From: Sphaerisporangium rubeum
GTDB taxonomy: Bacteria > Actinomycetota > Actinomycetes > Streptosporangiales > Streptosporangiaceae
Direction of reading: 5' to 3'
Length of the DNA stretch: 64,000 nucleotides
Assembly (NCBI RefSeq): GCF_014207705.1
Contig: NZ_JACHIU010000001.1
Location: forward strand, 5,634,501-5,698,500
Part shown: positions 2 through 34,378 of the stretch, piece after piece
Layout of the letters: each line of letters begins with the position of its first letter
Position numbering within the stretch: the first letter of the stretch is position 1
Translations under genes and position numbers: made by a program
The notes under the pieces: generated by a model
The model's database searches: none
What the model saw: only the letters and a program-made list of their open reading frames with translations
What the model was told of the DNA's origin: nothing

Positions 2-3000
2 GACTTCGACGCCGCGGCGTTCGGCATCAGTCCGCGTGAGGCCGCCGCGATCGACCCGCAGCAGAGGCTGCTGCTGGAGGTCGCCTGGGAGACCTTCGAA
101 CGCGCCGGGATCGCCCCCGACTCGCTGCGCGGCTCACGCACCGGCGTCTTCACCGGCGTCATGTACAACGACTACGCGTCCCGGCTGGGGAAGGCGCCGG
201 AGGAGTTCGAGGGTTATCTGCTCACCGGCAACACCTCCAGCGTCGTCTCGGGACGGCTCGCGTACACGTACGGCCTGGAGGGGCCCGCCGTCACGGTGGA
301 CACCGCCTGCTCCTCCTCGCTGGTGGCGCTGCACCTGGCCGCGCAGGCGATACGCCAAGGTGAGTGCGACCTGGCGCTCGCCGGCGGTGTGACGGTGATG
401 TCGACGCCGAACACCTTCGTGGAGTTCAGCCGGCAGCGGGGACTGTCCCCCGACGGCCGCTGCAAAGCCTTCGCCGCCACCGCCGACGGCACCGGATGGG
501 CCGAAGGCGCCGCACTCCTGCTCGTCGAACGCCTCTCCGACGCACAACGCAACAACCACCCCGTCCTCGCCGTCATCCGCGGCACCGCCGTCAACCAGGA
601 CGGCGCCAGCAACGGACTCACCGCACCCAACGGACCCGCACAACAACGCGTCATCACCCAAGCCCTCACCAACGCCGGACTCACCCCCACCGACATCGAC
701 GCCATCGAAGCCCACGGCACCGGCACCACCCTCGGCGACCCCATCGAAGCCCAAGCACTCCACAACACCTACCGCGACCGAACGCAACCCATCTACCTCG
801 GCTCACTCAAATCCAACATCGGCCACACCCAAGCAGCCGCCGGAGCCGCCGGCATCATCAAAATGATCCAAGCCATCCACCACGCCACCCTCCCCCCCAC
901 CCTCCACGCCGACACCCCCACCCCCCACATCGACTGGACCACCACCCCCCTCCACCTCCTCACCCACCCCACCCCCTGGCCCACCACCAGCCACCCCCGC
1001 CGCGCCGCCATCTCCTCCTTCGGCATCAGCGGCACCAACGCACACGTCATCATCGAACAACCACCGGCGGACACCGCGCAGACCACAGGTGCGCCGTCCC
1101 TCGCTCCGGCCGGCGCGACGGCCACCGAACCCCCGGCAGGGGCTCCCCTCCTGTGGCCGCTGTCGGCCCACTCCCCCGAAGCCCTGCGCGACCAGGCGCG
1201 CAACCTGCGCGACCATCTGGTCGGCCACCCCGGCGCGGACCTGACCTCCGTCGCGCGGACCCTGGCGACCAGCCGCGCCGGCCTTCCGCACCGTGCCGTC
1301 GCCGTCACCGGCGACCACGACGAACTCCTCGGCGCGCTGGCGGCCCTCGCCTCCGGCGCCGAGCACCCGGCCCTCGTCCGGGGTCACGCGGCGGCGCAGC
1401 CCCGGACCGCGTTCCTGCTCACCGGTCAAGGCAGCCAGCACCCCGGCATGGGACGGGACCTCTACCGCACCTACCCGGTCTTCGCCGCCGCGCTCGACGA
1501 GGCCTGCGCCGCGCTGGACCCCCATCTGGACCATCCGCTGCGTGACGTGATGTTCGCCGGCGAGGGCTCGGACCTGGCGGCGCTGCTCGACCGGACCGAC
1601 TACACCCAGCCGGCCTTGTTCGCGTCGCAGACCGCGCTGTTCCACCTGCTGGCCCACCTCGGCGTACATCCCGACGTCCTCACCGGCCACTCCATCGGCG
1701 AGCTGACCGCGGCCCACCTCGCAGGGGTGCTGACGCTGGAGGACGCCGCCACCCTGGTCTGCGCACGCGGCCGGCTCATGTTCGGCGCGCCGCCAGGCGG
1801 TGCGATGATCGCCGTCCAGGCCACCGAGGACGAGATCCTTCCCCATCTGACCGGCACCGTCGCCATCGCCGCGATCAACGGCCCCGCGGGTGTGGTCGTC
1901 TCAGGCGACCGTCGTGACGCCGCACGCGTCGCCGGGGTCTTCTCCGCGCGAGGCAGGCGCACGCATGAGCTCACCGTGAGCCACGCGTTCCACTCGCCGC
2001 ACATGGACCCGATACTCGACGCCTTCGCCGACATCGCGGGGACGGTCACCTACCATCCTCCTGCGACGCCGGTCGTCAGCGCGCTCACCGGTGAGGTCGC
2101 CACGGCGGCGCAGCTCACCGACCCCGCCTACTGGACCGAGCACATCGCAAGACCCGTCCGGTTCCACGACGCCACCCGGCACCTGCACGACGCCACCACG
2201 CTCCTCGAACTCGGGCCCGACGCCGTCCTCAGCGCACTCGTCGCGAACGGCACTCCGCTGCTGCGCAAGGGCCATCCCGAGCCGCAGACCTTCGCGCGCG
2301 GCGTCGCCGCAGCGTACGCCGCCGGCGCACCGGCCGACCTGTCCCGGCTCGTCCCGGCCGGCCCGCGCGTTCCGGCGGTGCTGCCGACCTACGCCTTCCA
2401 GCGGCAGCGGTACTGGATCGACGCCACGCGGGAAGGGCTCCTCGAGGAGGGGACCGAGCTGGCCGGGGACGGCGGGCTGCTGTTCACCGGACGCCTGTCA
2501 CCGGCGGCGTCCCCGTGGCTGGCCGACCACCGTGTCGGCGGGACCGCGACGGCGCCGGGTGCGTTGCTGGTCGCGCTGGCACTCCAGGCGGGGGTCCGTG
2601 CGCACACACCTGTGGTGGACGAGCTGACCCTGGAGGCGCCGCTCGCGCTGCCGGCCGAGGTGCAGGTCCTGGTGGAGGCCGCCGGCGCGGACGGCCGGCG
2701 TGCGCTGACCGTCCACGCGCGCGCCGGCGAGGACGAACCATGGGTACGGCACGCCGCCGGGTACCTCGCACCGGAGACCACGGTGACCGCCGTCCCCGAC
2801 GCCGCGTGGCCACCTCCCGGCGCGGCCCCGGTGGACGCCGCCGTGATGTACGACCACCTTCAGGCACTCGGCTACGACTACGGCCCCGCGTTCCGCGGTG
2901 TCCGGATGGCCTGGCGTGCGGAGAACACGCTGTTCGCGGAGGTCGTCCTGCCGGATGGCGTCGCCGGCGGTCTCCCGTTGCACCCGGTGCTGCTGGACGC

Positions 3001-6000
3001 GGCGCTGCACCCGCTACCGGGGATCGGGGACGGCATGGGGCTGCGCCTGCCGTTCACCTGGTCGGGGGTGCGGCTGCACGCCACCGGGGCCGGTGCGGTA
3101 CGGGTGCGGCTCGACCTGTCGGGTACGGACTCCGCCTCGCTGGTGCTGTCGGACCCGGCGGGTGGCCTGGTGGGCTCCGTCGAGGAGATCACCCTGCGGC
3201 CCTTCACGGGCTCCACCGGCACACGCACGGCGCCGGTGTACGAGCTGAACTGGGTGCCGGGGGCCGCGGGGAGACAGGCCGCCGAGGACGTCGAGATCGT
3301 CCGGATCGATGTGCCGCCGGTCGCGTCCGGTGGTGACGGCGTGCCGATCTCGGCACCGGACGGGACACCGGGGTCGCCGGTCGCGTCCGGTGGTGAGGGG
3401 GTGGCGATCGCGGGGCCGGAGGCGGTGCGTGCGGTGGCGGAGCTGGCGCTCGGGCTGGTGCGGCGGCACGTCGAGGACGACGGTGACCGGCGGCTGGTCC
3501 TCGTCACCTCCGGTGCCGTCGCCACCCACCGCGAGGAGCCGATCGCGGACCCGGCCACGGCGGTGGTGTGGGGGCTGGTGCGCTCGGCGCAGACCGAGCA
3601 CCCCGGACGGTTCGTGCTGGTCGACACCGACGGCACCGCCGAGTCGGAGCAGGCGCTGCCGTTCGCGGTGGCCGCAGGCGAGCCGCAGCTCGCGCTGAGA
3701 GAGGGCCGGGTGCTGCTGCCGCGGCTCGCCAGGCTCGCCGTCGGGGGTGGGGAGAGCCGGTTGCGTCCGGAGGGGACGGTGCTGATCACCGGCGCCACCG
3801 GATCACTCGGCCGCCTCGTCGCCGAACACCTCACCACCCACCACAACATCCGCCACCTCCTGCTCACCAGCCGACGCGGACCCGACGCACCCGGCGCCGA
3901 CGACCTGCTCACCACACTCACCGACCTCGGCGCACACCCCACCCTCATCGCCTGCGACACCACCGACCCCACCCAACTCACCGACCTGCTCACCACCATC
4001 CCCCCCGAACACCCCCTCACCGCCGTCATCCACACCGCCGCCATCCTCGACGACACCCCCATCACCCACCTCACCCCCCAACGCCTCCACACCGTCCTCA
4101 ACGCCAAAGCCACCACCGCACACCACCTCCACACCCTCACCCACAACCTCGACGCCTTCATCCTGTTCTCCTCCATCGCCGGCACCCTCGGCACCGCAGG
4201 ACAAGCCAACTACGCCGCCGCCAACACCTACCTCGACGCACTCGCCCACCACCGCCACACCCACCACCAACCCGCCACCTCACTCGCCTGGGGACTCTGG
4301 CAACAACCCACCACCCTCACCACCCACCTCACCACCACCGACCACCACCGCCTCCACAAAACCGGCATCACCCCACTCCACCCCCACCACGCACTCACCC
4401 TCCTCGACGCCGCACTACGCACCGACTGGTCGGACCACCCCGTGCTGGTCCCCGCACGGCTCGACACCTCGGCCCTGTCCGGCGACGCGGTCCCCGCACC
4501 GCTGCGGTCGCTCGTACGGCAGGCACCACGGCTCGCGTCCGCTCGACGAACCGAGGCCCGGCTGGCGGAACGGCTCGCCGGCGCGTCCCGGCAGGACGCG
4601 GAACGCCTGGTGGCGGACCTGGTGCGGGAGACGGCGGCCACGGTGCTCGGACACGCCACCGGCGCGGCCGTGGCGGAGGACCGGGCCTTCACCGAGCTCG
4701 GCTTCGACTCACTGTCCGCTGTGGACCTGCGCAACCGGCTGAACGCGGCGACCGGACTGAAGCTGCCGACGACCCTGGTGTTCGACCACCCGACCCCAGG
4801 GGCCGTCACGACGCTGCTCGTCGAAGAGCTGCTGGGTGAGGAAGAGGCGCCGCGCGAGGTACGGCCACGGGTCTCCGCGTCTCCCGTCGATGATCCGATC
4901 GTCGTCGTGGGGACGGCGTGCCGGCTCCCCGGCGGGGTGACCTCACCGCAGGACCTGTGGCGGCTGGTCAGCTCCGGCACCGACGCGATCGGCCCCTTCC
5001 CTCAGGACCGGGGGTGGGACCTGGACGCGCTGTACCACTCCGACCCCGAGCATCCGGGTACGTCCTACACGCGGGAAGGCGGATTCCTCTACGACGCGGC
5101 CGACTTCGACGCCGCGGCGTTCGGCATCAGCCCTCGTGAGGCCGCCGCGATCGACCCGCAGCAAAGGCTGCTGCTGGAGATCGCCTGGGAGACCTTCGAA
5201 CGCGCCGGCATCGCCCCCGACTCACTGCGCGGCTCACGCACCGGCGTCTTCACCGGCGTCATGTACAACGACTACGGCGCACGGCTGCACCAGGCGAGCG
5301 AGGCGCCGGAGGGGTTCGAGGGTTACCTGGTCAGCGGCAGCGCGGGAAGCGTCGCCTCGGGCCGGGTGGCGTACACCTTCGGGCTGGAGGGCCCGGCGGT
5401 CACGGTGGACACGGCGTGTTCGTCATCGCTGGTCGCGCTGCATCTGGCCGCGCAGGCGCTGCGGCAAGGCGAGTGTGATCTGGCGCTCGCGGGTGGCGTC
5501 ACCGTCATGGCGAGCCCGTCGGTCTTCGTGGAGTTCAGCCGGCAGCGGGGACTGTCCCCCGACGGCCGCTGCAAAGCCTTCGCCGCCACCGCCGACGGCA
5601 CCGGATGGGCCGAAGGCGCCGCACTCCTGCTCGTCGAACGCCTCTCCGACGCACAACGCAACAACCACCCCGTCCTCGCCGTCATCCGCGGCACCGCCGT
5701 CAACCAGGACGGCGCCAGCAACGGACTCACCGCACCCAACGGACCCGCACAACAACGCGTCATCACCCAAGCCCTCACCAACGCCGGACTCACCCCCACC
5801 GACATCGACGCCATCGAAGCCCACGGCACCGGCACCACCCTCGGCGACCCCATCGAAGCCCAAGCACTCCACAACACCTACCGCGACCGAACGCAACCCA
5901 TCTACCTCGGCTCACTCAAATCCAACATCGGCCACACCCAAGCAGCCGCCGGAGCCGCCGGCATCATCAAAATGATCCAAGCCATCCACCACGCCACCCT

Positions 6001-9000
6001 CCCCCCCACCCTCCACGCCGACACCCCCACCCCCCACATCGACTGGACCACCACCCCCCTCCACCTCCTCACCCACCCCACCCCCTGGCCCACCACCAGC
6101 CACCCCCGCCGCGCCGCCATCTCCTCCTTCGGCATCAGCGGCACCAACGCACACGTCATCATCGAACAGCCCCCTCCCCCCGCCGCCGCCGAGCCGGTCG
6201 AGGACACCGGCCCCGTGCCGTGGCTGCTGTCCGCACACACCCCAGAAGGCCTGCGAGCGCAGGCACGGCGGCTGAGCGATCACCTGGCGGCCGACCCCGG
6301 CCTGGACCTTCCGTCCGTCGCGCGCACCCTGGCCACGGGCCGCGCCGCGCTCACCCACCGCGCCGCCGCCGTCCCCTCCGGGCCCGGAGAACTGCGTGAA
6401 GCCCTGGACGCCGTGGCCGACGGCCGCCACCACCCGGCCGTGACACGCGGCGAGGTGAACGGCGTGCCGCGCACCGCGTACCTGTTCACCGGCCAAGGCA
6501 GCCAGCACCCCGGCATGGGACGGGACCTCTACCGCACCTACCCGGTCTTCGCCGCCGCGCTCGACGAGGCCTGCGCCGCGCTCGACCCGCATCTCGACCG
6601 GCCCCTGCGCGACATCCTCTTCAGCGACCCCGGCACCCCGGACGCCGCGTCACTGCACGAGACCCGCCACACCCAGCCCGCTCTGTTCGCCATGGAGACG
6701 GCGCTGTTCCGGCTGCTCGGCCACGCGGGCCCGCCGCCGCGCGCACTGCTCGGCCACTCGGTGGGCTCGATCGCCGCGGCCCATGTCGCGGGGGTGCTGA
6801 GCCTGGACGACGCCGCCACCCTGGTCACCGCGCGTGGCCGCCTCATGCAGGCACTGCCTGCCGGGGGTGCCATGGCGTCGTTGTCGCTGAGCGAGGCCGA
6901 CGCCGCCGCGCTGCTGGACGGGGAGGTCTCGGTGGCCGCGGTGAACGGGCCGCGTTCGACGGTGGTCTCCGGCGCGGAGGACGCCGTGCTGGGGGTGATG
7001 GAACGCGCGGCGGCCGGCGGCGCGAAGGTCAGGCGGCTCACCGTGAGCCACGCCTTCCACTCGTCGCTGATGGACCCGATGCTGGCGGACTTCCACGCGG
7101 TCGTCGCGGGCCTGACGTTCGCCGCTCCGCGGATCCCCATCGTGTCCGACCACACCGGGACGTTCGCCGGCGCCGAGGAACTGGCGTCCCCCGGCTACTG
7201 GGTGCGGCACGTCCGCGAGCCGGTGCGGTTCGCCGACGGGGTCCGCGCGCTGGCCGGGTCAGGCATCGATCTGTACGTCGAGGTGGGGCCGGACGCGGTG
7301 CTCTCCTCCATGGCCGCGCAGACCCTCCCCGATGCGCGCACGGTCCCGGTGCTGCGCCGTGACCTGCCGGAACCGGTGGCGTTCACCCGGGCCCTGGCCG
7401 CGCTGCACGTCTCCGGTACACCGGTGGACTGGGGCCGTCTCCTCCCGCCGGCGGGCCGTGACGTTCCGGTGGAGCTGCCGACGTACCCGTTCCAGCGCAC
7501 CCGCCACTGGCTCGACGTCCCCGCGTCCACCCGGCCGGCCGCGGGGCTGGACACCACCGGTCATCCGCTGCTCACCGCGGCCGTGGACCTGGCCGACGCG
7601 GACGGCACCGTGTTCACCGGCCGGATCTCCCCGCGTACCCACCCATGGCTGGCCGGCCACGTGATCGCCGGCACCACGCTGCTGCCGGCCACCGCGCTGC
7701 TGGACCTCGCGCTCACGGCGGGACGGCACACCGGCACCCCTGTGGTGGAGGAACTGACCCTCCTCGCTCCGATGCCGATCCCCGAGGACGCCGCGCTCCA
7801 GCTCCAGGTCACCGTGGCCGCCACCGATCAGGACGACCGCCGGACGGTGTCGGTGCACTCCCGTGAGGAGTCCGGGACCTGGACGCTGCACGCCTCAGGT
7901 GTGCTCACCCCGGCCGCCGGCCCGGCGGCTGCCGTACCCGGGGTGTGGCCGCCGCCGGATGCCGAGGTCGTCGAGCTCGACGGGGTGTACGAGCGGCTGG
8001 CGGGGCTCGGGTACGTGTACGGACCCGTGTTCCAGGGGTTGCGTGCCGTGTGGCGGCGCGGCGAGGAGCTGTTCGCCGAGGTCGAGCCGCCGGACGGCGC
8101 AGGGGACTGGCCGGGCCCGCATCCGGCGCTGCTGGACGCGGCGCTGCATCCGCTGGCGCTGGCGGGGGACGGTGTCCGGTTGCCGTTCTCGTGGAGCGGT
8201 GTCCAGGCGCACGGGACGGCCACCGGGCCGCTGCGCGTCGCGATCGTCCCCGCCGGGGACGGACAGGTGGCGTTGTCGCTGGCCGGGTCCTCCGGGGAGC
8301 CGGTGCTGTCGGTGGCAGCGCTGACCGTGCGGGAGGCCGACCTGGCCGCGCTCGCGCCTACGGCCGGTGGCGGGCTGTACCGGGTGGCCTGGTCGCCGGC
8401 GAACGGCGCCTCGGCGCCGGGGTCGTACGTGGTGCTGCGGTCGGCCGGGGAGGCGCAGGAGCACATCCGTGCGGCGGACGTCACCGAGGACGTCGTGCTC
8501 GCCGTCCCGGACGGCGAGCAAGCCGGCTTCACGCAGGTCACGGCCGACGTGCTCGCTGTGATCCAGGCCTGGCTGGCCGCCGACCCGCCGGACGTCCGGC
8601 TCGCCGTGGTCACCCGGCACGCCGTCGCCGTACGGGACGGTGAACCGCTCACCGGCCTCGCGCAGTCCGCGCTGTGGGGCCTGGTGCGCTCGGCGCAGAC
8701 CGAGCACCCCGGACGGTTCGTCCTCATCGACACCGACGGCGGCGCCGAGTCAGAACGTGCCGTCGGCGCCGCGCTCGCCACCGGCGAACCGCAGCTCGCG
8801 CTGCGCGACGGACTCGCACTGGTCCCGAGGCTCGTCCCGGTACGGGACGCGGCCGGACGGCTCGACGCGGCGGCGACCGGCGACGGTGCCACGGCACCCG
8901 ACGAGCACACCGGCATCGCTCCCCTCAGGCACAGGATGCGTCCGGAGGGGACGGTGCTGATCACCGGCGCCACCGGATCACTCGGCCGCCTCGTCGCCGA

Positions 9001-10243
9001 ACACCTCACCACCCACCACAACATCCGCCACCTCCTGCTCACCAGCCGACGCGGACCCGACGCACCCGGCGCCGACGACCTGCTCACCACACTCACCGAC
9101 CTCGGCGCACACCCCACCCTCATCGCCTGCGACACCACCGACCCCACCCAACTCACCGACCTGCTCACCACCATCCCCCCCGAACACCCCCTCACCGCCG
9201 TCATCCACACCGCCGCCATCCTCGACGACACCCCCATCACCCACCTCACCCCCCAACGCCTCCACACCGTCCTCAACGCCAAAGCCACCACCGCACACCA
9301 CCTCCACACCCTCACCCACAACCTCGACGCCTTCATCCTGTTCTCCTCCATCGCCGGCACCCTCGGCACCGCAGGACAAGCCAACTACGCCGCCGCCAAC
9401 ACCTACCTCGACGCACTCGCCCACCACCGCCACACCCACCACCAACCCGCCACCTCACTCGCCTGGGGACTCTGGCAACAACCCACCACCCTCACCACCC
9501 ACCTCACCACCACCGACCACCACCGCCTCCACAAAACCGGCATCACCCCACTCCACCCCCACCACGCACTCACCCTCCTCGACGCCGCACTACGCGGCGA
9601 GCATCCGGTGACCGTCCCGGCGCGCATCGACACGGCCGGTCTGCGTGCCACCGGGGACCCCGAGAAGGTGCCGCCGCTGATGCGTTCACTGGTCCGCATC
9701 CCCGTCAGGCGTGAACCGGCGCGACGGGACGGGCCGCGACCCTGGATGCGGAAACTCACCGAGGCCGCCGGGCCCGACCGGCCGCGTATCGCGCTCGACC
9801 TGGTGCGCGGCACGGTCGCCGAGGTCCTCAGGCTGCCGTCCGGCCAGGCCGTACCGGCGGAACGCGGGCTGCTGGACCTCGGGTTCGACTCCCTCACCGC
9901 GGTGGAGCTGCGCAACAGGCTCGCGGAGGAGACCGGACTGCGGCTGCCGACCACGCTGCTCTTCGACCATCCGACGGCCACCGCGCTCGCCGGTCATCTG
10001 CTCGGCGAGGCCGCCGCGCGGCTTCCCGGCGGCACCTCGGCGGCGCTGGCCGCACTCGACGAGCTGGCCGAGGCGCTCCCCGGCACGCTCACCCCGAAGG
10101 ACAGGGACCTGTTCACGACCCGGCTGTCCGCGCTGCTCACGCTGGTCTCCGCGCCACCGGACGACACGGTGACCACCGCGGTGGAGGAGGCGACCGACGA
10201 CGAACTGTTCCGGCTGATCGACACGCAGCTCGGCTCCGAGTGA
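2..10243 (+). CDS. Modular type I polyketide synthase, two complete or near-complete modules (5' end outside window)
   Basis: The frame is open from the window edge, so the gene starts upstream. Domain order: KS (2-1060, lacking its N-terminus; TACSSS, HGTGT), AT (about 1410-2300, GHSIGE and HAFH, malonyl type), DH (2450-3220, HxxxGxxxxP and DAALH), KR (3769-4420, [11 protein letters not shown], catalytic Tyr in QANYAAAN), ACP (4600-4830, LGFDSL). Module two: KS (4885-6170), AT (6470-7400, HAFH; GHSVGS instead of the usual GHSxGE), DH (7555-8350, HVIAG and DAALH), KR (8944-9600), ACP (9790-10010), then a C-terminal docking region (10020-10240). Both KRs have the LDD of B-type ketoreductases. 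By PKS rules each module adds malonate and makes a trans double bond. The next PKS gene starts 34 bp downstream. Both modules share long identical DNA blocks. Confidence 0.97.
415..1059 (+). repeat. Identical KS block, copy 1
   Basis: This 645-bp stretch, the distal half of the first KS, reads the same by eye as 5524-6168 (constant offset 5109). Mismatches begin immediately outside both ends. Codon use is distinct from flanking sequence: CAA, GAA, GGA and C-ending codons replace CAG, GAG and GGG. It looks like recent gene conversion or a block from a source with other codon habits. Confidence 0.9.
3316..3396 (+). repeat. Short in-frame direct repeat in the DH-KR linker
   Basis: A 21-bp segment at 3316-3336 recurs exactly at 3376-3396, 60 bp apart, encoding PVASGGDG and PVASGGEG. 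It sits in the non-catalytic linker before the KR, so it lengthens a loop without breaking the frame. Confidence 0.85.
3762..4420 (+). repeat. Identical KR block, copy 1
   Basis: This 659-bp block covers the whole catalytic KR of the first module and matches 8937-9595 by eye at constant offset 5175, with mismatches at both outer flanks. It is rich in ACC, CAC and CTC codons, unlike the linkers around it. Module homogenisation by gene conversion is the simplest reading. Confidence 0.9.
5524..6168 (+). repeat. Identical KS block, copy 2
   Basis: This is the partner of 415-1059 and covers the distal half of the second KS, including the HGTGT and NIGHT motifs. The shared block stops at the KS end, where the KS-AT linkers differ. 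Confidence 0.9.
8937..9595 (+). repeat. Identical KR block, copy 2
   Basis: This is the partner of 3762-4420. It carries the KR of the second module with the same NADPH motif, LDD motif and catalytic Tyr, so both modules should give the same alcohol stereochemistry. Confidence 0.9.
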
Positions 10244-10277
10244 CCCACACGCACGACGCAGGAGGGACGAACGCCGC

Positions 10278-13200: not shown

Positions 13201-16200
13201 ACGCGATCGACGGCACGGTGGTGTTCCCGGCGGCGGCCTACCTGGACCTGGCGTTCCAGGCGGGCCAGGCACTCGGCGGGCTCGGTGTCGCGGAGCTCGG
13301 CGCGGGACCCGCGCTGGCACTGGACGCGGCCGGTGGCGCGGACCTGCAGCTCACGGTAGGCGCGGCGGACGACCAAGGCAGGCGCGTCTTCACGTTGTAC
13401 GCGCGGCCGTACGACGAGTCCTCCGAGGACGAGGCCCTTGATCCGCCGTGGACGGAGCACGCCTCGGGGGTGCTCGCACCGCCGGCCGCCGTGCCGGATG
13501 CGCTCACGGCCTGGCCGCCGGCGGACGCGGAGGAGCTGGACGTGGTGGAGACCCGTGCGGACCTCGCCGCGCTGGGCCACGACCACGGCGCGGCTTTGCA
13601 GGGTCTCACGCGCCTGTGGCGGCGGGACGAGGAGCTTTTCGCCGAGGTGGCGGCACCCGACGGCCTGGACGTCTCCCGCCACAACCTGCACCCCGCGCTC
13701 CTCACCGCCGCGCTCCAGCCTCTCCTTCCGGTCGCCGGCCCTGTCGCCGTCCCCGCGCAGTGGCACGACGCCGTACCGCACACCGCCGGAACACCGGGTC
13801 CACAAGGTCTGCGCGTACGCCTCACCCGCCTGCCCTCCGGCGACCCGGCGACCGAGGCGGACGACGGCACCCCCGCCGTGCGGTACGGGGCCGTGATCGC
13901 CGACGCGGCCGGTCTCCCTGTGGCCACGATCAGGTCGGTGGAGCTGCGGCCGGTGCGCGACCTGGCCCCGGCGGCGGCCCGTCCCGACTGGCTGCTCGGA
14001 CCGGACTGGCAGCCGGTCCCCGTCCGGGACACCGCCGGCGGTGACGTCCCGGACGTCGTGACCTGGCACGCCTCCTCGGCGGCCGATCTGCTCACCGACC
14101 TGCGGGCCTGGTTCACCGACCGGGACGACGACGGCACCCACCTGATGGTGGTGACCCGGCACGCGGTGGCCACCTCGCCGGACGACGTGCCGGATCTGGC
14201 GCCGGCTTCGGTGTGGGGCCTGGTCAGGGCCGTGCAGTCCGAGCATCCGGGACGGGTCACGATCGTCGACCTGGACGGGGACGAGGCGTCCGCGCGTGCG
14301 CTTCCCGCCGTGCTCGGCCTCGGCGAGCCGCAGGTCGCGCTGCGGCGAGGTGAGGCACGGGTCCCCCGGCTGGCCGTCTCCACGCCGGACGACTTCACGT
14401 CCGCGCCGCGCTTCGGCGGCACGGTCCTCGTGTCGGGGTCGGGTGACCTCGCGGCGCACGCCGCCGAATACCTCGTCGCAGGGCTCGGGGTGCGTCGCCT
14501 GCTGCTGCTCGGCGACGTCATCGAGCACGCGGGGACGCTGGCGGAACTCGGGGCCGAGGTCCTGGTGGCGGGTGACGAAGCCGCGGGTGACGGAGCGGCG
14601 GACAAGGAGACGGCCGCCGGTGGCGGAGCGGCGGACCAGGGTGCGGCGGCAGGCGGCGGAGCGGCGCACCGGGAGACGGTGGCGGCGGCGCTCGCGCTGG
14701 TCCCCCCGGAGCACCCGTTGACGGCGGTCGTCCATGTGCCGGCCGTGGCGGACGAGGCCGTGCTGCTGTCCATCCCGCCGGACGACTTCGACACGGCGCT
14801 GCGGGAGAGCCGCGACGCGGCGTGGGCCCTGCACGAGCTGACCCTCGGTGTCGATCTCGGCGCCTTCGCGCTGGTGCTGCCGGACGTCTCGGCCGCGCTC
14901 GGCGGCACAGGACAGGCGGCGCGAGCCGCGACCGGCGCGTACCTCGACGCGCTGGCGCGGCACCGGCGGGACCTCGGTCTCCCCGCCGTGTGCGTGGCCT
15001 TCGGCCCCCGCGAAGGGGGGCCGCCGCGCGCCGGCCTGGTACGTTCGGCCGCCACGCAGACGGGGCCGCTGCTCGGACTGGCGCTGCGGTCGGCGCGGCC
15101 CTCGCTGCTCGCCACCCGGCCGGCCGTGGGTGCGCTGCGCGACCAGGCGGCGGCGGGCCTGCTGTCGCCGCTGCTGCGGCCGTTCGCGGGGAGCCGGGCC
15201 GTCTCGCCGCAGGGGACGGTCTCGGCGTTCGCGTCCCTGGCCACCCGGCCGAGGGTGGACCAGGAACGGATGCTTCTCGACGCGATCGGCGAACAGGTCG
15301 CCGGGGTGCTGGGGTACGCCGCGCAGGACGGCCTGGACGCCACGCGGCCCTTCAAGGACCTCGGTTTCGACTCGCTGACCTCGGTGGAGCTGCGCAACCG
15401 GCTGTCCGCCGCCACCGGACTGAAGCTGCCTAGCACCTTGGTCTTCGACCACCCGTCGCCGCGTGCGCTCGCCGGGTTCCTGCGTTCCCGGCTGCTGAGC
15501 ACAGGCGACACCCCGGCGGTCACGGTCACGGTGGAGCGGCGGGACGACGAACCGGTCGCGATCGTCGCCATGGCGTGCCGGTACCCGGGTGAGGTGCGCA
15601 CCCCCGAGGACCTGTGGGACGTCGTCGCGTCCGGACGCGACGTCGTCTCGCCGTTCCCCGTGAACCGGGGGTGGGACCTGGAACGGCTCTTCGACCCCGA
15701 CCCTTCGCGCGCCGGCACCTCGTACGCGCGGGAAGGTGGGTTCCTGCACGACGCCGACCGGTTCGATCCGGCGTTCTTCGGGATCAGCCCGCGTGAGGCG
15801 GTCAGCATGGATCCGCAGCAGCGGTTGCTGCTGGAGACGTCGTGGGAGGCGTTCGAACGGGCCGGCATCGACCCGGGGACGCTGCGCGGTTCACGGACCG
15901 GGGTGTACGCGGGGGTCGTGTACACCGACTACGGGTCACGGGTGCGGCTTCCCGCCGACATGGAGGGGTACCTCGGAATCGGCAGCGCGGGGAGCATCGC
16001 GTCGGGACGCATCGCGTACACGCTGGGACTGGAAGGGCCCGCGGTGACGGTGGACACGGCGTGCTCGTCGTCGCTGGTGGCACTGCACCTGGCGGTGCGC
16101 GCGCTGCGGAACGGCGAGTGCGATCTGGCGCTGGCCGGTGGCGCGACCGTGCTGGCCAATCCGGACATCTTCATCGGGTTCAGCAGGCAGCGCGGCCTGT

Positions 16201-19200
16201 CGCCTGACTCGCGGTGCAAGGCGTTCGCCGCCGCGGCGGACGGCACGGCGTTCGGTGAAGGCGTCGGACTGCTGCTGGTGGAACGGCTGTCGGACGCGCG
16301 GCGGAACGGCCACCCCGTGCTGGCCGTCATCCGTGGCACGGCGATCAACCAGGACGGCGCGAGCAACGGCCTCACCGCGCCGAACGGCCCCGCGCAGCAG
16401 GCGGTGATCCGGCAGGCGCTGGCCGACGCGGGACTGACCGCGGCCGACGTGGACGCCGTCGAGGCCCACGGCACCGGCACCACGCTCGGCGACCCCATCG
16501 AGGCGCAGGCCATTCTCGCGACGTACGGCGCCGACCGGCCGGCCGGCCGGCCGGTGTGGCTGGGATCCCTGAAGTCCAACATCGGCCACTCGCAGGCCGC
16601 CGCGGGGGTCGGCGGGGTCATCAAGATCGTGCAGTCCCTCCGGCACGGTGAACTCCCCCGCACTCTTCACGTGGACCGTCCTACCCCGCACGTCGACTGG
16701 GAGGACGGCGCCGTCCGCCTTCTCACCGAACCCGTCCCCTGGCCCGCCGACCCGGATCACCCCCGCCGCGCCGGCGTCTCCGGCTTCGGTATGAGCGGCA
16801 CCAACGCGCACGTCATCATCGAGGAACCACCTCCCGCACCGTCCGGGACGGACGCCGGAGTGGCGGCTCCGGCCGACGAGGCGGCGGCCGTGCCGGTGGT
16901 GCTGTCGGGACACACACCTGCGGCGTTGCGCGCTCAGGCCGAACGGTTGCGCGAGCATCTCCTCCAACGGCCGGAGGCGGATCTGCGTGCGGTGGCACAC
17001 ACCCTGGCCACCGGCCGCGCCGCACTCACCCACCGCGCCGTCATCGTCCACGACAACCGGCCCGAACTCCTCACCGCACTCCAAGCCCTGACCAACGGAC
17101 ACGAACACCCCGCACTCGTCCACGGCCAAGCCGGTGACCCCGGCAAAATCGTCTTCGTGTTCCCCGGCCAAGGCTCCCAATGGGAACACATGGCCACCGA
17201 CCTGCTCACCACCTCACCGGTCTTCGCACACCACCTCACCGAAGCCGCCGACGAAATCCAGCGGCAAGCCGGATGGAACCTGATCGACGTCCTGCACAAC
17301 CAGCCACAAGCCCCACCCCTGGACCGCGTCGACATCGTCCAACCCGCACTGTTCGCCGTCATGACCAGCCTCGCCCGGCTATGGCAACACCACGGCATCC
17401 ACCCCCACGCCGTCATCGGCCACTCCCAAGGCGAAATCGCCGCAGCCCACATCGCCGGAGCCCTCACCCTCACCGACGCCACCACCATCATCACCCGCAG
17501 AGCAACCACCCTGCGGACTCTGGCAGGTACCGGTGCCATGGCCACGATCCCCCTCCCCGCCGAAACCCTCCACCCCCACCTGGCCACCTACACCGATCTC
17601 CACATCGCCGCACACAACAGCCCAACTACAACCGTCATCGCCGGCAACCCCACCCAACTCAAACACCTCCTCGACCAACACCCCCACCTCAAAACCCGCA
17701 CAATCCCCGTCGACTACGCCTCCCACACCCCCCACATCCACCCCCTCAAACAAACCCTCCTCCACCAACTCACCGACATCCACCCACAAAAAGCCGACAT
17801 CCCCTTCTACTCCACCCTCCACGGCACCCCCATCGACACCACCACCCTCACCGCACACTACTGGTACGACAACCTCGCCAACCCCGTCCTGTTCCACCAG
17901 ACCATCACCCACCTCGAACAAGACGGCCACACCACCTACATAGAAGCCAGCCCCCACCCCGTACTCACCGCCGCCATCGACGACACCACCACCGGTACGA
18001 CCCTCACCACCGGAACACTCCGCCGCGACCAAGGCACCCTCACCCGCTTCCACAAATCCCTCGCACACCTCCACACCCACGGCACCCCCACCACCTGGAC
18101 CCCCCACACCACACCCACCACCACCGACCTCCCCACCTACCCCTTCCAACACCGCCGCTACTGGCTGGAGGGTCCCTCGATCGGCGGCGACGCCGGCAGC
18201 CTTGGTCACGACACCACCGACCACCCGTTCCTCGGTTCCCTCACCACGCTCGCCGAGAGCGGCGCGACGGTCCTGACCGGCCGCCTCTCCCGTGACTCGC
18301 ACGGCTGGCTGGCCGGCCACGCCGTGCGGGGGTCCGTACTGCTTCCCGCCACGGCGCTGCTGGAGCTGGCGTTGCAGGCGGGCCAGGTCACCGGGTCCGC
18401 GCCGCGGGTGGAGGAGCTGACCCTGGAGGCGCCGCTGTACCTGCCGGAACGCGGCGCCGTCCGTCTCCAGGTGGTCGTGGAGGAGGCGGACGGCACCGGC
18501 AGGCGGCGGGTCACCGTCCACTCGCGGCACAGTACGGACCCGGAGTGGACGCGGCACGCGGCGGGGGTGCTCGCGCCGCAGGCCGGCGAAGCGCCGGCGC
18601 CGGTGGAGAGCTGGCCGCCGCCGGGGGCCGTGCCGCTCGACGTGGACGGGTTGTACGAGCGGCTCGCGGAGCTGGGGTACGAGTACGGGCCCGACTTCCA
18701 GAACCTCACGGCCGCCTGGGGTGACGGGGACACCGTGTACGGCGAGGTGGCGTTGCCGGAGGAGCAGCACGAGACGGCGGCGCGTTTCCTCGTCCACCCG
18801 GCGCTGCTCGACGCGGCGATGCACACGATGGCGCTCGGCGGGTTCCTCGGCGACGGGGTCCGGCTGCCGTTCGCCTGGTCAGGAGTGTCGCTGTACGCGG
18901 CCGGCGCCACGGCGCTGCGGGTGACCGTCGCGCCGGGCCCCGGTGGCGCCGGCGATGCCGACACGGTGTCGCTGACCGTCGCGGACCCGGCAGGGGCCCC
19001 GGTGGCGCATGCGGCGTCGCTGACCCTGCGTGCCGCCGGCCCTGGGACGTCGCGCCGTCCCACCGGACCGGCTTCCCTGTACGAGGTCGGCTGGACCGAG
19101 ATCCCCGTCCAGGACGCCACGCTTTCCTACGATCTCGCCGCGCCGTTCCCCGGCCTGGTGGCATCGCTCGGCGCTCCGGACCCCGGAGCGGCGACGACGC

Positions 19201-21884
19201 TGCTCCCCTGGCTGGAGACACCGGACGGCGCCACACCTGAGGCGGTCGCGGGAAACGTCCAGGCCCTGCTCGCACAGCTCAGGGAACGGCTGGCGGACGA
19301 GCGGCCGGGACGGCTGGTCGTGCTCATCCGCGAGGCGGTCGCCGCCGGGCCGGGTGACGTGGCCGATCTTGTGGCCGCGCCACTGTGGGGACTGCTGAGG
19401 TCGGCGGCGACCGAGAACCCCGGCCGGGTCGCGGTGGTGGACGTGGACGGCGAGGAGTCGCTGCACGCGCTTCCCGGCGCGCTCGCCACCGGGGAGCCGC
19501 AGGTGGCGCTGCGTGGCGGCCGGGTGCTGGTGCCGAGGCTCGGCAGGGTGGACACGACCCGTGTCGTGCGGCCCCCTGAGGACGGTTCGGCGTGGCGGCT
19601 CGCCACGTCAGGGGGCTCGCCTGACGACCTGTACGCGGCGGCGTTCCCCGAGGCGTACGCGCCGCTCACCGATGGCCAGGTCAGGATCTCGGTGCGCGCG
19701 GCGGGTCTGAACTTCCGCGACGTGCTCACGACCCTCGGGATGGTCCCCGCGGACGTGCCGCTCGGCACGGAGGTCGCGGGGACCGTGCTGGAGACCGGGC
19801 CCGGTGTCACGGGCCTCGCGGTGGGAGACCGGGTGTTCGGCCTGGTGCGAGGTGGGGTGGGGCCGGTCGCGGTGGGGACGCGCGACCTGCTGGCGCCGAT
19901 ACCGGACGGCTGGACGTACGCGCAGGCCGCCGGGGTGCCTGCGGTGTTCACCACGGCCTACCACGGCCTGGTGGAACTGGCCCGGCTGCGGCCGGGTGAG
20001 CGGGTGCTGATCCACGCGGCGGCCGGTGGGGTCGGCCTCGCGGCGCTCCAGCTCGCTCGGCACCTCGGCGCCGAGGTGTTCGCCACGGCGAGCCCGGCCA
20101 AGTGGCACGCGCTGCGTGAACTCGGCGTGCCGAGGGAACGGATCGCCTCGTCGCGCACCGGCGACTTCGAGCAGGCCTTCCCCGCCGTGGACGTGGTGCT
20201 GAACTCGCTGACCGGCGATCTCCTCGACGCGTCGCTGCGGCTGTTGTCCCCAGGCGGCCGGTTCGTCGAGATGGGGATCGCCGACCTGCGGGACCCGGCG
20301 GATGTCGCGGCGGCCCATCCGGGGGTCGCGTATCTGCCGTTCGAGCTGCTCGACATGCCGGTCCCGTCGGTGAGCGCGTCGCTGTCGGCGGTGCTGGCGC
20401 TGTTCCGCGACGGCGCGCTGCGGCCGCTGCCGGTGACGACGTGGGACGTGCGGCAGGCCCCGGCGGCCTTCAGGTACTTCGGTCAGGCCCGGCACGTCGG
20501 CAAGATCGTGCTGACCTTGCCGGGGACCGGCACCGAGGCGGTCATTGAGACGGCTACGGCAGGGGACTCAGGCAGGCGTACGGCAGGGGACACGGCCGCG
20601 CCTACAGGCACCGTGCTCGTCACCGGCGGTACCGGCACCATCGGCGCCGTCGTGGCCCGTCACCTGGTGGCCGAGCACGGCGTGCGTCACCTGCTGCTCA
20701 CCGGCAGGCGCGGCGCGGACGCGCCGGGGGCCGAGGCGCTGGCGGCCGAGCTGACCGAGGCGGGGGCCGAGGTGCGCGTCGTGGCCTGTGACGCCGCCGA
20801 CCCGGACGCGCTCGCGGCGCTGCTCGCCACGATCCCGGACGAGCGTCCGCTGACCTCGGTGATCCACGCGGCGGGGGTGCTGGACGACGGTGTGCTCGCC
20901 TCGCTGACCGAGGAGAAGGTCCGCGCGGTGCTGCGGCCCAAGGTGGACGCCGCCTGGAACCTGCACCGGCTCACGCGGGACCTGGACCTCGCGTCGTTCG
21001 TGCTGTTCTCGTCGGCGTCCGGCCTGCTCGGCGGCGCGGGTCAGGCCAACTACGCCGCGGCGAACGTGTTCCTCGACGCGCTCGCCGAGCACCGCCGGTC
21101 CCGTGGCCTGCCGGCGGTGTCCCTGGCGTGGGGCATGTGGCGGCAGGCGAGCGGCATGACCGGCCACCTCGGCGAGGCGGACCTCGCGCGTATCGCCAGA
21201 GGCGGCCTCGTCCCGATGGACGCCGCCGACGGCATGGCCCTGTTCGACGCGGCGCTGGCCGCGGGACGTCCGGCGCTGGTGCCTGCCGTGGTGGACGAGG
21301 CGGCGCTGCGAGCGCGCGACGACGTCCCGGCCGTGCTGCGGTCCCTGGTGCGGGGCCCCGGGGTGCGGCGGGCCGCGCGGCGGGAACAGGTGTCGCCGTC
21401 GTCCCTGGCGGACCGGCTGGCGGCGCTGCACGGCGCCGAGCGCACGGAGGCGATGGAGACGCTGGTACGTGAGCAGGTCGCGGCCGTGCTCGGTCACCTG
21501 ACGGCCGACGACGTCGGCTCCGGCCGCGCGTTCAAGGAGATCGGCTTCGACTCGCTGACGTCGGTGGAGCTGCGCAACCGCGTCGCGGCGGCGACCGGGT
21601 TGCGGCTCCCCGCGACGCTGGCGTTCGACTTCCCGACCCCGGCCGCGCTGGCCGCGCACCTGCTCGGGCTGCTGGCGCCGGACGACACGGCGGCCGAGCT
21701 GGACCGGCTGCTGGCCTCGGTCACGGCGGACAGCGCCGATCTGCCGAAGATCAAGGACAGGTTGCGCGCGGCGCTGTGGCGCCTGGAGGAGGCCGCCGGC
21801 GGCGAGAGGCAGGCCGAGGATCTGACGTCGGCGACGGACGAGGAGCTGTTCCGCGCGCTGGACGAGGAGTTCGACGCGACGTGA
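10278..21884 (+). CDS. Modular type I polyketide synthase, two methylmalonate modules (one non-reducing, one fully reducing)
   Basis: 3868 aa, ATG preceded by GGAGGG at 10261. N-terminal docking helix, then KS (10397-11690), AT (12027-13045, GHSQGE and YASH, methylmalonyl type), a degenerate DH (13090-13960: HAIDG present but the Asp motif is TAALQ), a degenerate KR (14413-15010: no TGxxGxxG, no LDD, ARAATG in place of NYAAAN), ACP (15280-15490). Second module: KS (15545-16830), AT (17145-18170, YASH), DH (18210-19050, HAVRG and DAAMH), ER (19590-20530, [10 protein letters not shown]), KR (20610-21130, LDD and active Tyr), ACP (21460-21670), C-terminal docking segment. Prediction: the first module leaves a ketone with an alpha-methyl; the second makes a saturated alpha-methyl unit. 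The ER has Val in GMVP where Tyr would favour 2S, so a 2R methyl is suggested by the published Tyr/Val correlation. Confidence 0.97.
12021..13050 (+). repeat. Near-identical AT block, copy 1
   Basis: The AT and its downstream linker closely match 17136-18170, with long identical runs broken by patches of difference (for example around 12185 versus 17300, and the region before 12660). Both copies use the same C-ending, CAA/GAA-type codon style that contrasts with neighbouring KS and DH sequence. Confidence 0.85.
14580..14678 (+). repeat. 33-bp tandem repeat (x3) inside the inactive KR
   Basis: Three in-frame 33-bp units encode [22 protein letters not shown] and [11 protein letters not shown]. 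They fill the region where an active KR would carry its nucleotide-binding fold, consistent with decay of a domain that is no longer under catalytic selection. Confidence 0.85.
17136..18170 (+). repeat. Near-identical AT block, copy 2
   Basis: This is the partner of 12021-13050, within the AT of the fully reducing module. Offsets shift by about 10 bp between its upstream flank and the AT core, showing that small indels accumulated in the KS-AT linker outside the conserved block. Confidence 0.85.
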
Positions 21885-21970
21885 CCGGCCCGCCGGCCCC
21901 GTGACCAGCCGTCTCGACGGCCCCGTCGACCGGCCCCGTGACCATGAGGAACCCGACGCCTGGAGCTGAC

Positions 21971-24900
21971 ATGAGCAACGAGGAGAAGCTGCGCGACTAT
22001 CTCAGGCGCGCGACGGCCGACCTCCGGCAGGCCCGGCGGCGCCTTCGCGAGCTTGAGGACAGGGACCACGAGCCGGTGGCGATCGTGGCGATGGGGTGCC
22101 GTCTTCCCGGCGGCGTGGACTCCCCCGAGGAGTTGTGGCGGCTGGTCGACGACGGCGTGGACGCGATCGGCGCGTTCCCCGAGGACCGGGGCTGGGACGT
22201 GGAGGGGTTGTACGACCCGGACCCCGACCGCACCGGCACGACGTACACCCGGGAAGGGGGGTTCCTGCGGGACGCCGCGCACTTCGACGCCGCGTTCTTC
22301 GGCATGGGGCCGCGGGAGGCGATCGCGACCGACCCGCAGCAGCGGCTTCTGCTCGAAGTGGCGTGGGAGACGTTCGAACGGGCCGGGATCGCGCCGGGGT
22401 CGCTGCGCGGCTCACGGACCGGGGTGTTCGCGGGTGTGGTGTCGCAGGCGTACGCGCCGCCACCCGGCCGGGTGCCTGACGGGTACGAGGGGCACCTGAT
22501 GACGGGGAACGCGACGAGTGTGGCGTCGGGCCGGGTGTCGTACCACCTGGGGCTCGAAGGCCCGGCGGTGACCATTGACACGGCGTGCTCGTCGTCGCTG
22601 GTGGCGATGCACCTGGCCGCGCAGTCGCTGCGGCGCGGCGAGTGCGACCTGGCGCTCGCCGGTGGTGTCACGGTGATGGCGACGCCGGTGCTGCTGGTGG
22701 AGTTCAGCCGCCAGCGGGGCCTGGCCCCCGACGCGCGCTGCAAGGCGTTCGCCGCCGCCGCCGACGGCACCGGTTTCGCCGAAGGCGCCGGGCTGCTCCT
22801 GCTGGAACGCCTGTCGGACGCCAGGCGCAACGGCCGGGCCGTGCTCGCGGTGCTGCGCGGCTCGGCGGTCAACCAGGACGGCGCGAGCAACGGCCTGACC
22901 GCGCCGAACGGCCCCACGCAGGAACGGGTCATCCGGGAGGCCCTCGCCGACGCCAGGTTGTCGCCGCAGCAGGTGGACGCGGTGGAGGCGCACGGCACCG
23001 GCACCCGGCTCGGCGACCCCATCGAGGCCCAGGCGATCATCGCGGCGTACGGCCAGGGCCGCGACCGGCCGCTGTTCCTGGGGTCGGTGAAGTCCAACAT
23101 CGGCCACACGCAGGCGGCGGCGGGGGTGGCCGGGGTCATCAAGATGGTGCAGGCGCTGCGGCACGGCGTGCTGCCGCGCACGCTGCATGTTGACGAGCCG
23201 ACCCCGCAGGTGGACTGGGACTCCGGTGCGGTGCGGCTGCTGATCGAGCCGGTGCCGTGGCCGGAGCACGACCGGCCGAGGCGCGCGGGTGTGTCGTCCT
23301 TCGGCATCAGCGGCACCAACGCGCACGTGGTGATCGAGGAGGCGCCGCGTACACCGGTGGCGGAGGCCGGGCCGGACGAGGAGCGGCGGTCCACGGGGAT
23401 CTCCGCGGACCGCCTGGCGGAGCCCGCCGAGGCCGGACCGTCGTGGCCGGCGTCATGGCCAGCGCTGTGGCCGTTGTCGGGACACACCGAGGAGGCCTTG
23501 CGCGACCAGGCGGCGCGGTTGCTCCGGCGGCTGCGTGACCGGCCGGACCTCGACGCGACGCGGGTGGGACGGACGCTGGCGCTCGGCAGGACGGCGCAGC
23601 GCCACCGCGCGGTCGTCCTGCCGGGTGACGGGGACCACCGGCTGCGGGCCCTCGCGGAGCTGGCCGAGGGCCGCACGTCGGGACGGCACGTGCGTGGCCG
23701 TGCCGCCGGCCGGCCGGCCGTCGCCTACCTGTTCACGGGGCAGGGGAGTCAGCGGGCCGGCATGGGACGGGGGCTGTACGCGGAGGCGCCGGTGTTCGCG
23801 CGGGCCCTGGACGAGGCGTGCGCGGGGTTCGACGGGCTGCTCGACCGGCCGCTCAAGGAGGTGCTGTTCGCCGAGCCGGGTTCGGCGGCGGCCGCGCTCC
23901 TGGACAGGACCGAGTACGCGCAGCCCGCGCTGTTCGCGCTGGGGACCGCGTTGTTCCGGCTGCTGGAGCGGCTCGTCGCGCCGCCGGCGCGGATGGCGGG
24001 GCACTCGCTCGGCGGGCTGACCGCCGCGCACGCCGCCGGGGTGCTGTCGCTGGAGGACGCCTGCGCGCTGGTCGCGGCACGCGGCAGGGTCATGCAGGAG
24101 CAGCCGGCCGGCGGCGCGATGGCCGCCGTCGAGGCCGGCGAGGCGGAGGTGACGGAACTGCTGGCCGGGTACGCGGGCCGGCTGGACCTCGCCGCGGTCA
24201 ACGGGCCGTTCGCGACGGTCGTGTCCGGTGACGCGGACGCGGTGGCCGACGTCGCCGGCCGGTTCGCCGGCCTCGGCCGCAGGACGACGCGGCTGCGAGT
24301 GAGCCACGCGTTCCACTCGCCGCACATGGACGGGGCCCTCTCGCCGTTCCACGCGGCGGCGGCCCGCGTCACGTACCGGCGGCCGCTGATCCCGCTGGTG
24401 TCGGAGGTGACCGGCCGCGAGGCGTCCTTCGACGAGCTGCGCGACCCCTCCTACTGGGTGCGTCAGCTCCGTGCCACGGTGCGGTTCGGCGACGTCCTGT
24501 CGGCACTGCGCGCCACCGGGATCACGGCCTTCGCCGAGGTCGGGCCGGACGCCGTGCTCACACCGCTCGCCGCGGCGGCCCTGCCGTCCGGCGCCGTGGT
24601 CCTTCCCACGTTGGCCCGGGACCGCCGCGAGCCGGACGCCGTCGCCGCGGCGGTGGCCCGGCTGCACGTCGCAGGCGCCGAGATCCACTGGGACGCCTGG
24701 TACGGAGACCGTCCCACGCCTCCCGCCGACCTCCCCACCTATCCCTTCCAGCACGAGCACTACTGGTGGCCGGACGGAACCCTGCGCACGTCCGGAGAAA
24801 GTGGCCACGTCCCGGCCGGCACAGCGGACCAGGCCGCCGCCGGGCCCGCGCGGAACGGCCGGGTGCTCAGCGGCACCGCACCGGCCGGTCCTGCCGAACC

Positions 24901-25183
24901 CGCGCCGGCCGGTCAGGTCCTCGCCGGCGCCGCGCCGGCCGGTGAGGCCACGCTGATCGATCTCGTGCGGGTGCACGCGGCCGAGGTGCTCGGCCATCCC
25001 ACCCCCGAGACGATCGGAGCCGACGACAACTTCCTCCACATCGGTTTCTCGTCGTTCACCGCGTTGGAGGTGCGCAACAGGTTGTGCGAGGCCACGGGGC
25101 TGCAGTTGCCTCCCGTGCTGCTGTACGACTACCCCACCCCGGCCGCCGTGGCGGTCTACCTGGAGGAGCGGCTGGCCTCCTGA
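21971..25183 (+). CDS. Modular type I polyketide synthase, terminal minimal module KS-AT-ACP without thioesterase
   Basis: 1070 aa. The ATG at 21971 is chosen because GGAG lies 5 nt upstream and the protein then begins with a typical docking helix; an in-frame ATG at 21938 would add 11 unlike residues. Domains: docking helix, KS (22070-23350, TACSSS, HGTGT, NIGHT), AT (23715-24700, GHSLGG, HAFH, malonyl type), an Ala/Pro/Gly-rich linker, ACP (24950-25180). The ACP motif is GFSSF rather than GFDSL: the phosphopantetheine Ser is kept but the preceding Asp is lost. There is no KR, DH, TE or C-terminal docking segment, so a beta-keto thioester must be released in trans. Such endings are known for tetronate-type polyketides. 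Confidence 0.96.
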
Positions 25184-32493: not shown

Positions 32494-33441
32494 TCACGAC
32501 CGGAGCCCGGCGCGGCTCTTGCTCAGGTCACGCGCGACGACGCAGGCCCGCGCGATGGTCGCGGCGCGGGACGAGCCGTGCGCGACCACCACGGTGGCGT
32601 TGAGGCCGAGCAGCGCGGCGCCGCCGTGGGTCCCGGGGTCGTAGCGGCGCGCGACCTCGGCGAGGCGGTCCGGTGGCGCGATCCCCGCGGCGGCGACCTG
32701 AGCGAGCGCGGCGCGCACGGTGCCTTCGACGTTCTTGAGCACGATGTTGCCGGTGAAGCCGTCGGTCACCACCACATCTACTGTTCCCGCGAGCACGTCG
32801 TGGCCTTCGACGTTCCCGTGGAACCGATGCGGCAGCAGCGCCAGGAGCTCGGCGGCCCTGCGGGCCAGCCGGTTCCCCTTACCCGGCTCGGAGCCGATGG
32901 ACAGCAGCCCGACGACCGGCTCCGCCACCCCGAGCACCTCCTCGGCGTACGTCACGCCGAGCACCGCGAACTGCGCCACCATCTCGGGGGTCGGGTCGGA
33001 GGTGGCGCCGGCGTCGATCAGCACGGTCGCGCCGCCGGTCACCGTCGGCAGCGCCACGGCCAGCGCGGGACGCAGCACCCTCGGCGCGCGGCCGAGCGCA
33101 CGCACCGCGCACGAGACCACGGCCCCGGTGGACCCGGCCGACACCAGCGCGGCCCCCGCGCCACCGCGCACCAGCTCACACCCCACTGCCAGGCTGCTCT
33201 TGCCGGTCGCGAGCGCGCCGGGCCCGCGTTCCGCCATCGGCACGACGTCAGGCGCGTGCGTCACGGCGATCTCATGCGTGGCGCCGTACCTGGCGAGCTC
33301 GGCACGCAGCTCACCGGCGCGGCCGACGAGGGTCACCGGCACGCCGTGCTCGCGGCACGCCTGCACGGCCCCCGCCACCGTCTCGGCCGGCCCGTGGTCG
33401 CCACCCATCGCGTCGAGCACCACAGGCGCCGCCGTGGTCAT
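32494..33441 (-). CDS. plsX: Phosphate acyltransferase PlsX
   Basis: 315 aa starting at MTTAAPVVLDAMGGD (ATG 33441). The ATG overlaps the CrtB stop (ATGA), indicating translational coupling; a longer frame upstream is an out-of-frame shadow of crtB. Conserved PlsX segments include VLDAMGGDHGP, SAGSTGAVV, IDAGAT and DGFTGNIVLKNVEG. PlsX converts acyl-ACP to acyl-phosphate, the donor for PlsY. Housekeeping plsX usually sits with rpmF/fabD genes; here it is the last gene of the crtE-I-B operon, which suggests a paralogue dedicated to carotenoid acylation. Confidence 0.93.
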   Translation of the reverse strand: MTTAAPVVLDAMGGDHGPAETVAGAVQACREHGVPVTLVGRAGELRAELARYGATHEIAVTHAPDVVPMAERGPGALATGKSSLAVGCELVRGGAGAALVSAGSTGAVVSCAVRALGRAPRVLRPALAVALPTVTGGATVLIDAGATSDPTPEMVAQFAVLGVTYAEEVLGVAEPVVGLLSIGSEPGKGNRLARRAAELLALLPHRFHGNVEGHDVLAGTVDVVVTDGFTGNIVLKNVEGTVRAALAQVAAAGIAPPDRLAEVARRYDPGTHGGAALLGLNATVVVAHGSSRAATIARACVVARDLSKSRAGLRS

Positions 33442-34349: not shown

Positions 34350-34378
34350 CGTTTTCTCATCGGCGGTTTCTGCGTCAT
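34346..34378 (-). CDS. Ten-codon linker ORF between crtI and crtB
   Basis: The ORF encodes MTQKPPMRKR. Its ATG overlaps the crtI stop (ATGA) and its TGA overlaps the crtB GTG start (GTGA). A GGAGGG site at 34385-34390 is spaced 6 nt from this ATG, whereas crtB itself has only a weak site. It may serve as a relay that carries ribosomes from crtI to crtB by two successive termination-reinitiation events. The peptide is probably not functional. The arrangement is seen directly; the role is inferred. Confidence 0.45.
   Translation of the reverse strand: MTQKPPMRKR

Follow-up and report, generated by a model that had tools for sequence, protein, structure and literature searches.

The window, i.e. 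the whole stretch of 64,000 nt that was analysed (bases 5634501-5698500 of the 7.5 Mb genome of Sphaerisporangium rubeum, a single contig), begins with three collinear polyketide synthase (PKS) genes that extend over positions 2-25183 and in which Pfam and motif scans detected five modules. Positions are given as genome coordinate minus 5634500, genes located upstream of the window having negative numbers, and gene calling relied on a codon-usage script applied to 126 kb around the window. The first PKS gene, abyB1, enters the window with its 3' part (2-10243, plus strand), which starts inside the KS of module 2 and encodes modules 2 and 3, both with the Pfam architecture KS-AT-DH-KR-ACP, the first KS being cut by the window edge. 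The whole gene (-8572 to 10243), whose upstream part was defined by a KS search and motifs, encodes 6271 aa and adds a KSQ-AT-ACP loading unit (KSQ motif DTAQSSSL) and module 1 outside the window, modules 1, 2 and 3 each being KS-AT(malonyl)-DH-KR-ACP. It is followed on the same strand by abyB2 (10278-21884; 3868 aa), in which Pfam found two KS-AT-DH-KR-ACP modules, 4 and 5, the second with an ER, and by abyB3 (21938-25183, with a possible alternative ATG start at 21971), which encodes module 6 as KS-AT-ACP. No thioesterase (TE) domain was detected by Pfam in abyB3 or in the PKS genes of the window as a whole. The AT motif is HAFH (malonyl) in the loading unit and in modules 1, 2, 3 and 6, and YASH (methylmalonyl) in modules 4 and 5. 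In total, the PKS is composed of a loading unit and six modules split 4/2/1 among the genes, with five malonyl and two methylmalonyl ATs, and N-terminal docking domains found by Pfam on abyB2 and abyB3 support this gene order. A preliminary description of the raw sequence had read the same five modules in three genes, in the order malonyl, malonyl, methylmalonyl, methylmalonyl, malonyl and without a TE, which Pfam and the AT motifs confirm; it had also predicted a loading unit and one malonyl module further upstream, and not more than two extra modules, which is what abyB1 contains.

The description had further considered both the KR and the DH of the first module of abyB2 to be dead. This stands, with the nuance that the DH of module 4 retains the His of its HxxxGxxxxP motif and has Thr in place of the catalytic Asp, while in the KR the catalytic Tyr is replaced by Arg, the Lys is lost and the glycine motif is degraded. 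As judged by residues only, both domains are inactive. In an alignment of five clusters (that of S. rubeum and those of Acrocarpospora, Herbidospora, S. fragilis and Streptomyces 2131.1), the KR Tyr is absent from all five and the DH Asp is Thr in four, S. fragilis retaining the Asp with an altered His region, a point counted against the abyssomicin-type explanation given below. All five share the KSQ motif and, in their ATs, the order HAFH (four times), YASH (twice), HAFH (once). Outside module 4, the catalytic motifs checked are intact, and none of the called genes has an interrupted frame.

Two further features of the PKS genes were recorded. The last ACP of abyB3 carries IGFSSF (25040-25057) rather than a motif of the LGFDSL type; this holds for all five clusters read, with the variant IGLSSF in S. 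fragilis, and the motif is perhaps a mark for hand-over of the chain to AbyA1 (see below). Also, the KR-coding regions of modules 2 and 3 contain a 662-base direct repeat (3759-4420 and 8934-9595) with 99.85% identity, including 657 identical bases out of 657 over a run of 219 residues. Other inter-module repeats listed for the PKS have 90% identity or less, and the KR repeat looks like the product of a recent gene conversion.

The PKS genes are part of a cluster of ca. 61 kb (genome positions 5599868-5660962) in which nearly all accessory genes are located ca. 9-35 kb upstream of the window; their coordinates derive from the codon-usage gene calls and their families from Pfam matches. The cluster starts with genes for a SARP (-34632 to -33865, plus strand) and a type II thioesterase (-33841 to -33137, plus), followed by the LuxR-type abyH (-32477 to -29754, minus). 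A plus-strand series then comprises abyK (-29521 to -26897), encoding an RHS-repeat protein of 874 aa, abyU (-26872 to -26468; AOC-like, 134 aa), abyA1 (-26438 to -25395; ketosynthase III), abyA2 (-25398 to -23485; FkbH), abyA3 (-23488 to -23261; ACP), abyA4 (-23264 to -22452; 2-oxoacid dehydrogenase acyltransferase type), abyA5 (-22455 to -21379; alpha/beta hydrolase) and abyZ (-21382 to -20882; flavin reductase). The five abyA genes thus occur in order, the assignment of abyA5, which has weak family matches only, being mainly based on position and conservation. Next come the TetR gene abyC (-20855 to -20187, minus) and, again on the plus strand, the MFS exporter gene abyD (-20107 to -18650), the luciferase-like abyE (-18582 to -17554), the ABC transporter genes abyF1-F4 (-17496 to -12388), a gene for an Acyl_transf_3 protein, hereafter the acyltransferase (-12299 to -11133), the P450 gene abyV (-11136 to -9931), a ferredoxin gene named abyW by its position (-9857 to -9666) and an esterase gene (-9662 to -8772). 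As had been anticipated from the window, tetronate genes lie upstream: the abyA1-A5 cassette, on the same strand as the PKS and ca. 13-18 kb before the abyB1 start, includes the glyceryl-ACP genes abyA2/A3 and the FabH-like abyA1, and an AbyU-like Diels-Alderase gene is present as well.

At the other end, a second P450 gene (25260-26462, minus strand) closes the cluster 3' of abyB3 in reversed orientation. The genes scanned beyond it (LigD-type polymerase, carotenoid-type enzymes, sirtuin, transporters and others) appear to have nothing to do with the cluster. Among them, in 32494-36890, the gene of a PlsX-like protein (PF02504, fatty acid synthesis) lies next to genes for squalene/phytoene synthase, an amine-oxidase-type protein and polyprenyl synthase.

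Taken with the gene content, the PKS region at the start of the window is most probably where a complete spirotetronate cluster of the abyssomicin type, with the type 1b layout, has its 3' end (probability of about 0.92). The abyssomicin-type assembly-line end proposed from the window is supported by the module order, the inactive KR/DH and the presence of the main aby genes, abyU and abyV among them. AbyU shares 100 of 129 aligned residues (77.5%) with that of Verrucosispora (Micromonospora) maris, compared through structure entry 5DYV, and AbyV is 62% identical to 7QAN, with which it falls on the same side of a P450 tree (see below). The aby cluster of V. maris AB-18-032, which directs synthesis of atrop-abyssomicin C, is described as having the 4/2/1 split of abyB1-B3, five malonyl and two methylmalonyl units (five acetates and two propionates) and inactive KR and DH domains in the first module of B2 (PMC3625739); the match with the V. 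maris AbyB1-B3 is to this description rather than residue by residue. The gene split that the preliminary description had likened to abyB1-B3 thus agrees with the table and text of that paper, from which abyA1-A5, C, D, E, F1-F4, H, K, V, Z, a type II thioesterase and a SARP are also common to both clusters. Compared with aby as published there, the S. rubeum cluster differs in having nearly all accessory genes upstream of the PKS and one P450 downstream, in an AbyK of 874 rather than 579 aa, in an additional acyltransferase and esterase, and in the His kept by the module 4 DH. The layout corresponds to type 1b as outlined by Iglesias et al. 2020 (PMC7176366) for ten genomes, namely all aby blocks upstream of the PKS and an extra abyV downstream; both features occur here and no difference in layout from that outline was found. 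The cluster, ordinary save for a few conserved extra genes, is a further type 1b abyssomicin representative that is complete on one contig, in an actinomycete close to Herbidospora and Acrocarpospora. The case also illustrates that the compound class, and the genes to be expected upstream, were predicted correctly when the raw sequence was read one module at a time.

The gene set and motifs were observed directly, whereas the catalytic steps below are inferred from published work on aby, abm and AbyV. The KSQ unit would decarboxylate the loaded malonyl to acetyl, and the three malonyl KR/DH modules would build a triene. Module 4 would then add methylmalonyl and leave a ketone, module 5 would add methylmalonyl with full reduction, and module 6 would add malonyl without reduction, giving CH3-(CH=CH)3-CO-CHMe-CH2-CHMe-CO-CH2-CO-S-ACP. 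AbyA2/A3 would provide glyceryl-ACP, which AbyA1 would couple to the chain, releasing it as a tetronate, so that a TE would not be needed. AbyA4/A5 would form the exocyclic methylene by acylation and elimination, AbyU would carry out the [4+2] cyclisation and AbyV an epoxidation, the tetronate oxygen then opening the epoxide. For the steps from tetronate release to epoxidation, the scheme follows the accounts given in PMC5819245 and PMC10107801. The predicted product has the carbon skeleton of abyssomicin C, possibly acylated by the extra acyltransferase.

The closest alternative is a neoabyssomicin/abyssomicin-2 type pathway like abm of Streptomyces koyangensis SCSIO 5802, for which the same 4/2/1 PKS layout and the same tetronate cassette are described (PMC5819245). 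It is nonetheless very unlikely here, as AbyU scores 226.5 bits against V. maris AbyU and 66 bits against the distant AbmU, gene order and accessory genes differ from the published abm table, and no Pfam match corresponding to the abm-specific PPTase or amidohydrolase was found among the scanned cluster and flanking genes. A different spirotetronate, of the chlorothricin, tetrocarcin or tetronomycin class, would imply a PKS partly encoded elsewhere in the genome, and other KS domains do occur in large frames at ca. 5.99-6.02 Mb and at 0.57 Mb. Also in its favour, the tetronate cassette of the glyceryl-ACP/FabH type is shared by these families, which are mentioned in PMC3625739. The nearest of the other KS domains is more than 300 kb away, however, and no part is missing from the local PKS, which has a KSQ loading unit of its own as well as docking domains, a release cassette and an AbyU of the abyssomicin type beside it; this makes the option highly improbable. 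Clusters of that class have a longer PKS and other tailoring.

That the cluster might be silent or decayed, and yield no product, is raised by its distribution in the genus: among 11 genomes, that of S. rubeum alone has a strong AbyU match, two others having weak AOC-like matches (E 1.9e-5 and 9.3e-4), which suggests, without proving it, that the cluster was gained by horizontal transfer. Genes that are open throughout and whose checked motifs are intact outside module 4 argue against decay, and an inactive locus is hardly to be expected.

A scan of genome contigs identified 25 AbyU loci, some of which are perhaps among the ten published type 1b genomes. The K-U-A1-A2-A3-A4-A5 block is intact in 18 of them; in the others it is interrupted by a contig end (L019), has no A2 match (L025), is without K (L028-L030) or, at two Micromonospora loci, has A1-A5 on the other strand. 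Four relatives were followed over 60 kb; all four kept the gene order between abyU and the downstream P450, with abyZ unmatched in two, and each had the PKS with its flanking P450 (58-76% for the best segment of B1-B3). To our knowledge no product has been described for these four relatives, and none of the titles retrieved from the literature accessible to the search reported a product from Herbidospora. As a separate observation, the S. rubeum genome contains two full rpoB-like genes (genome positions 1428577-1431882 and 4909607-4912900). One RpoB is 93% identical over 606 residues to those of Acrocarpospora and Herbidospora and 84-89% to those of the other six of 8 genomes compared, which probably puts the host in or near the family of these two genera; the other, more divergent copy reaches at best 85% among 9 genomes.

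The P450 downstream of the PKS does not seem to have arisen by duplication of abyV. A phylogeny of 14 P450s, rooted at midpoint only and with AbyV and the Micromonospora wenchangensis sequence as long branches, has one split (100/100) that unites the downstream P450s of the five clusters with the M. wenchangensis P450 at the abyX position, opposite the upstream P450s, AbyV 7QAN and two Frankia-type P450s. The nearest kin of the S. rubeum downstream P450 outside such clusters is likewise the M. wenchangensis protein (63%, vs 52% to AbyV), the abyX class being taken from the gene position in M. wenchangensis. The type 1b paper terms this gene an extra abyV (PMC7176366), whereas here it groups with the abyX-position P450. 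In V. maris, abyX deletion is reported to lower production to about 3% (PMC3625739).

Neither the acyltransferase nor the esterase appears in the published aby table (PMC3625739), and the final compound may therefore differ from atrop-abyssomicin C. Nineteen of the 25 AbyU genomes encode the acyltransferase with at least 60% identity, the two Micromonospora genomes having matches of only 42-45%, and the esterase gene occurs within a few kilobases of the acyltransferase gene, also in 19 of 25. Relative to the first set, the second lacks two Streptomyces and includes two Frankia (50-57%), and one of its esterase matches is partial. As both genes are common to most relatives, an acylated product, or an acyl mask that is later removed, is plausible, i.e. 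an acylated abyssomicin may be the end product of such strains or an intermediate on the way. The titles retrieved from the literature accessible to the search included no acylated compound of this type.

The remaining conserved feature concerns abyK, which is located directly 5' of abyU in 22 of the 25 loci, the other three (L028-L030) having no AbyK beside AbyU. If each distance is taken up to where the tblastn match to AbyU begins, 14 pairs are separated by 16-103 nt, 7 overlap by 8 nt and one has no stop in between. In the latter, from Streptomyces iconiensis (L007:7328-10405), abyK and abyU share one uninterrupted frame of 1025 aa. By its predicted fold, AbyK is a toxin-less Rhs-like shell: an AlphaFold2 model of the Acrocarpospora protein (mean pLDDT 77.3, pTM 0.81, with low confidence over roughly the 100 C-terminal residues, among them part of the Rhs-associated core) has Rhs shells as its nearest PDB structures, with the best E-value for RhsA 7Q97 (7.5e-40; TM 0.47 on the model) and a top TM of 0.60 among the Rhs matches listed. 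Besides, in-frame deletion of abyK is reported to reduce production to ca. 30%, restored by the plasmid-borne gene (PMC3625739). The adjacency, overlap or shared frame with abyU, the predicted fold and the deletion effect together led us to consider that AbyK might be a toxin-less Rhs cocoon in physical partnership with the Diels-Alderase AbyU, serving it for example as cage or chaperone or holding the substrate in its shell. This idea is speculative and probably wrong: three loci have no adjoining AbyK, and the S. iconiensis abyU still has its own ribosome-binding site and ATG. AbyU alone has been the subject of in vitro Diels-Alderase work. It is presented as an established Diels-Alderase by itself in PMC5819245, which also weighs against a cocoon. 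Were the idea true, an Rhs shell would have been co-opted for small-molecule biosynthesis. In any case, the AbyK-AbyU linkage is a concrete lead on a gene whose role was termed obscure in the 2011 paper (PMC3625739), beyond which no paper on AbyK function was found in the literature accessible to the search.

PF18678 matches were found in 24 of 396 sampled genomes of the phylum, including that of S. rubeum, with 27 matches listed. Three of the matches lie in frames of more than 500 aa. One of them (L050) reads as a protein with a signal peptide, whose frame is long by accident owing to high GC content, rather than as an Rhs-AOC fusion; the other two (L055 and L071) had no YD repeats in the parts of the frames inspected. 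As a further point against the cocoon idea, no Rhs-AOC fusion was recognised among the distant AOC-like matches, which were inspected in part. The S. rubeum genome itself encodes a second, weak AOC-like domain protein at genome positions 1806000-1806290 (L035).
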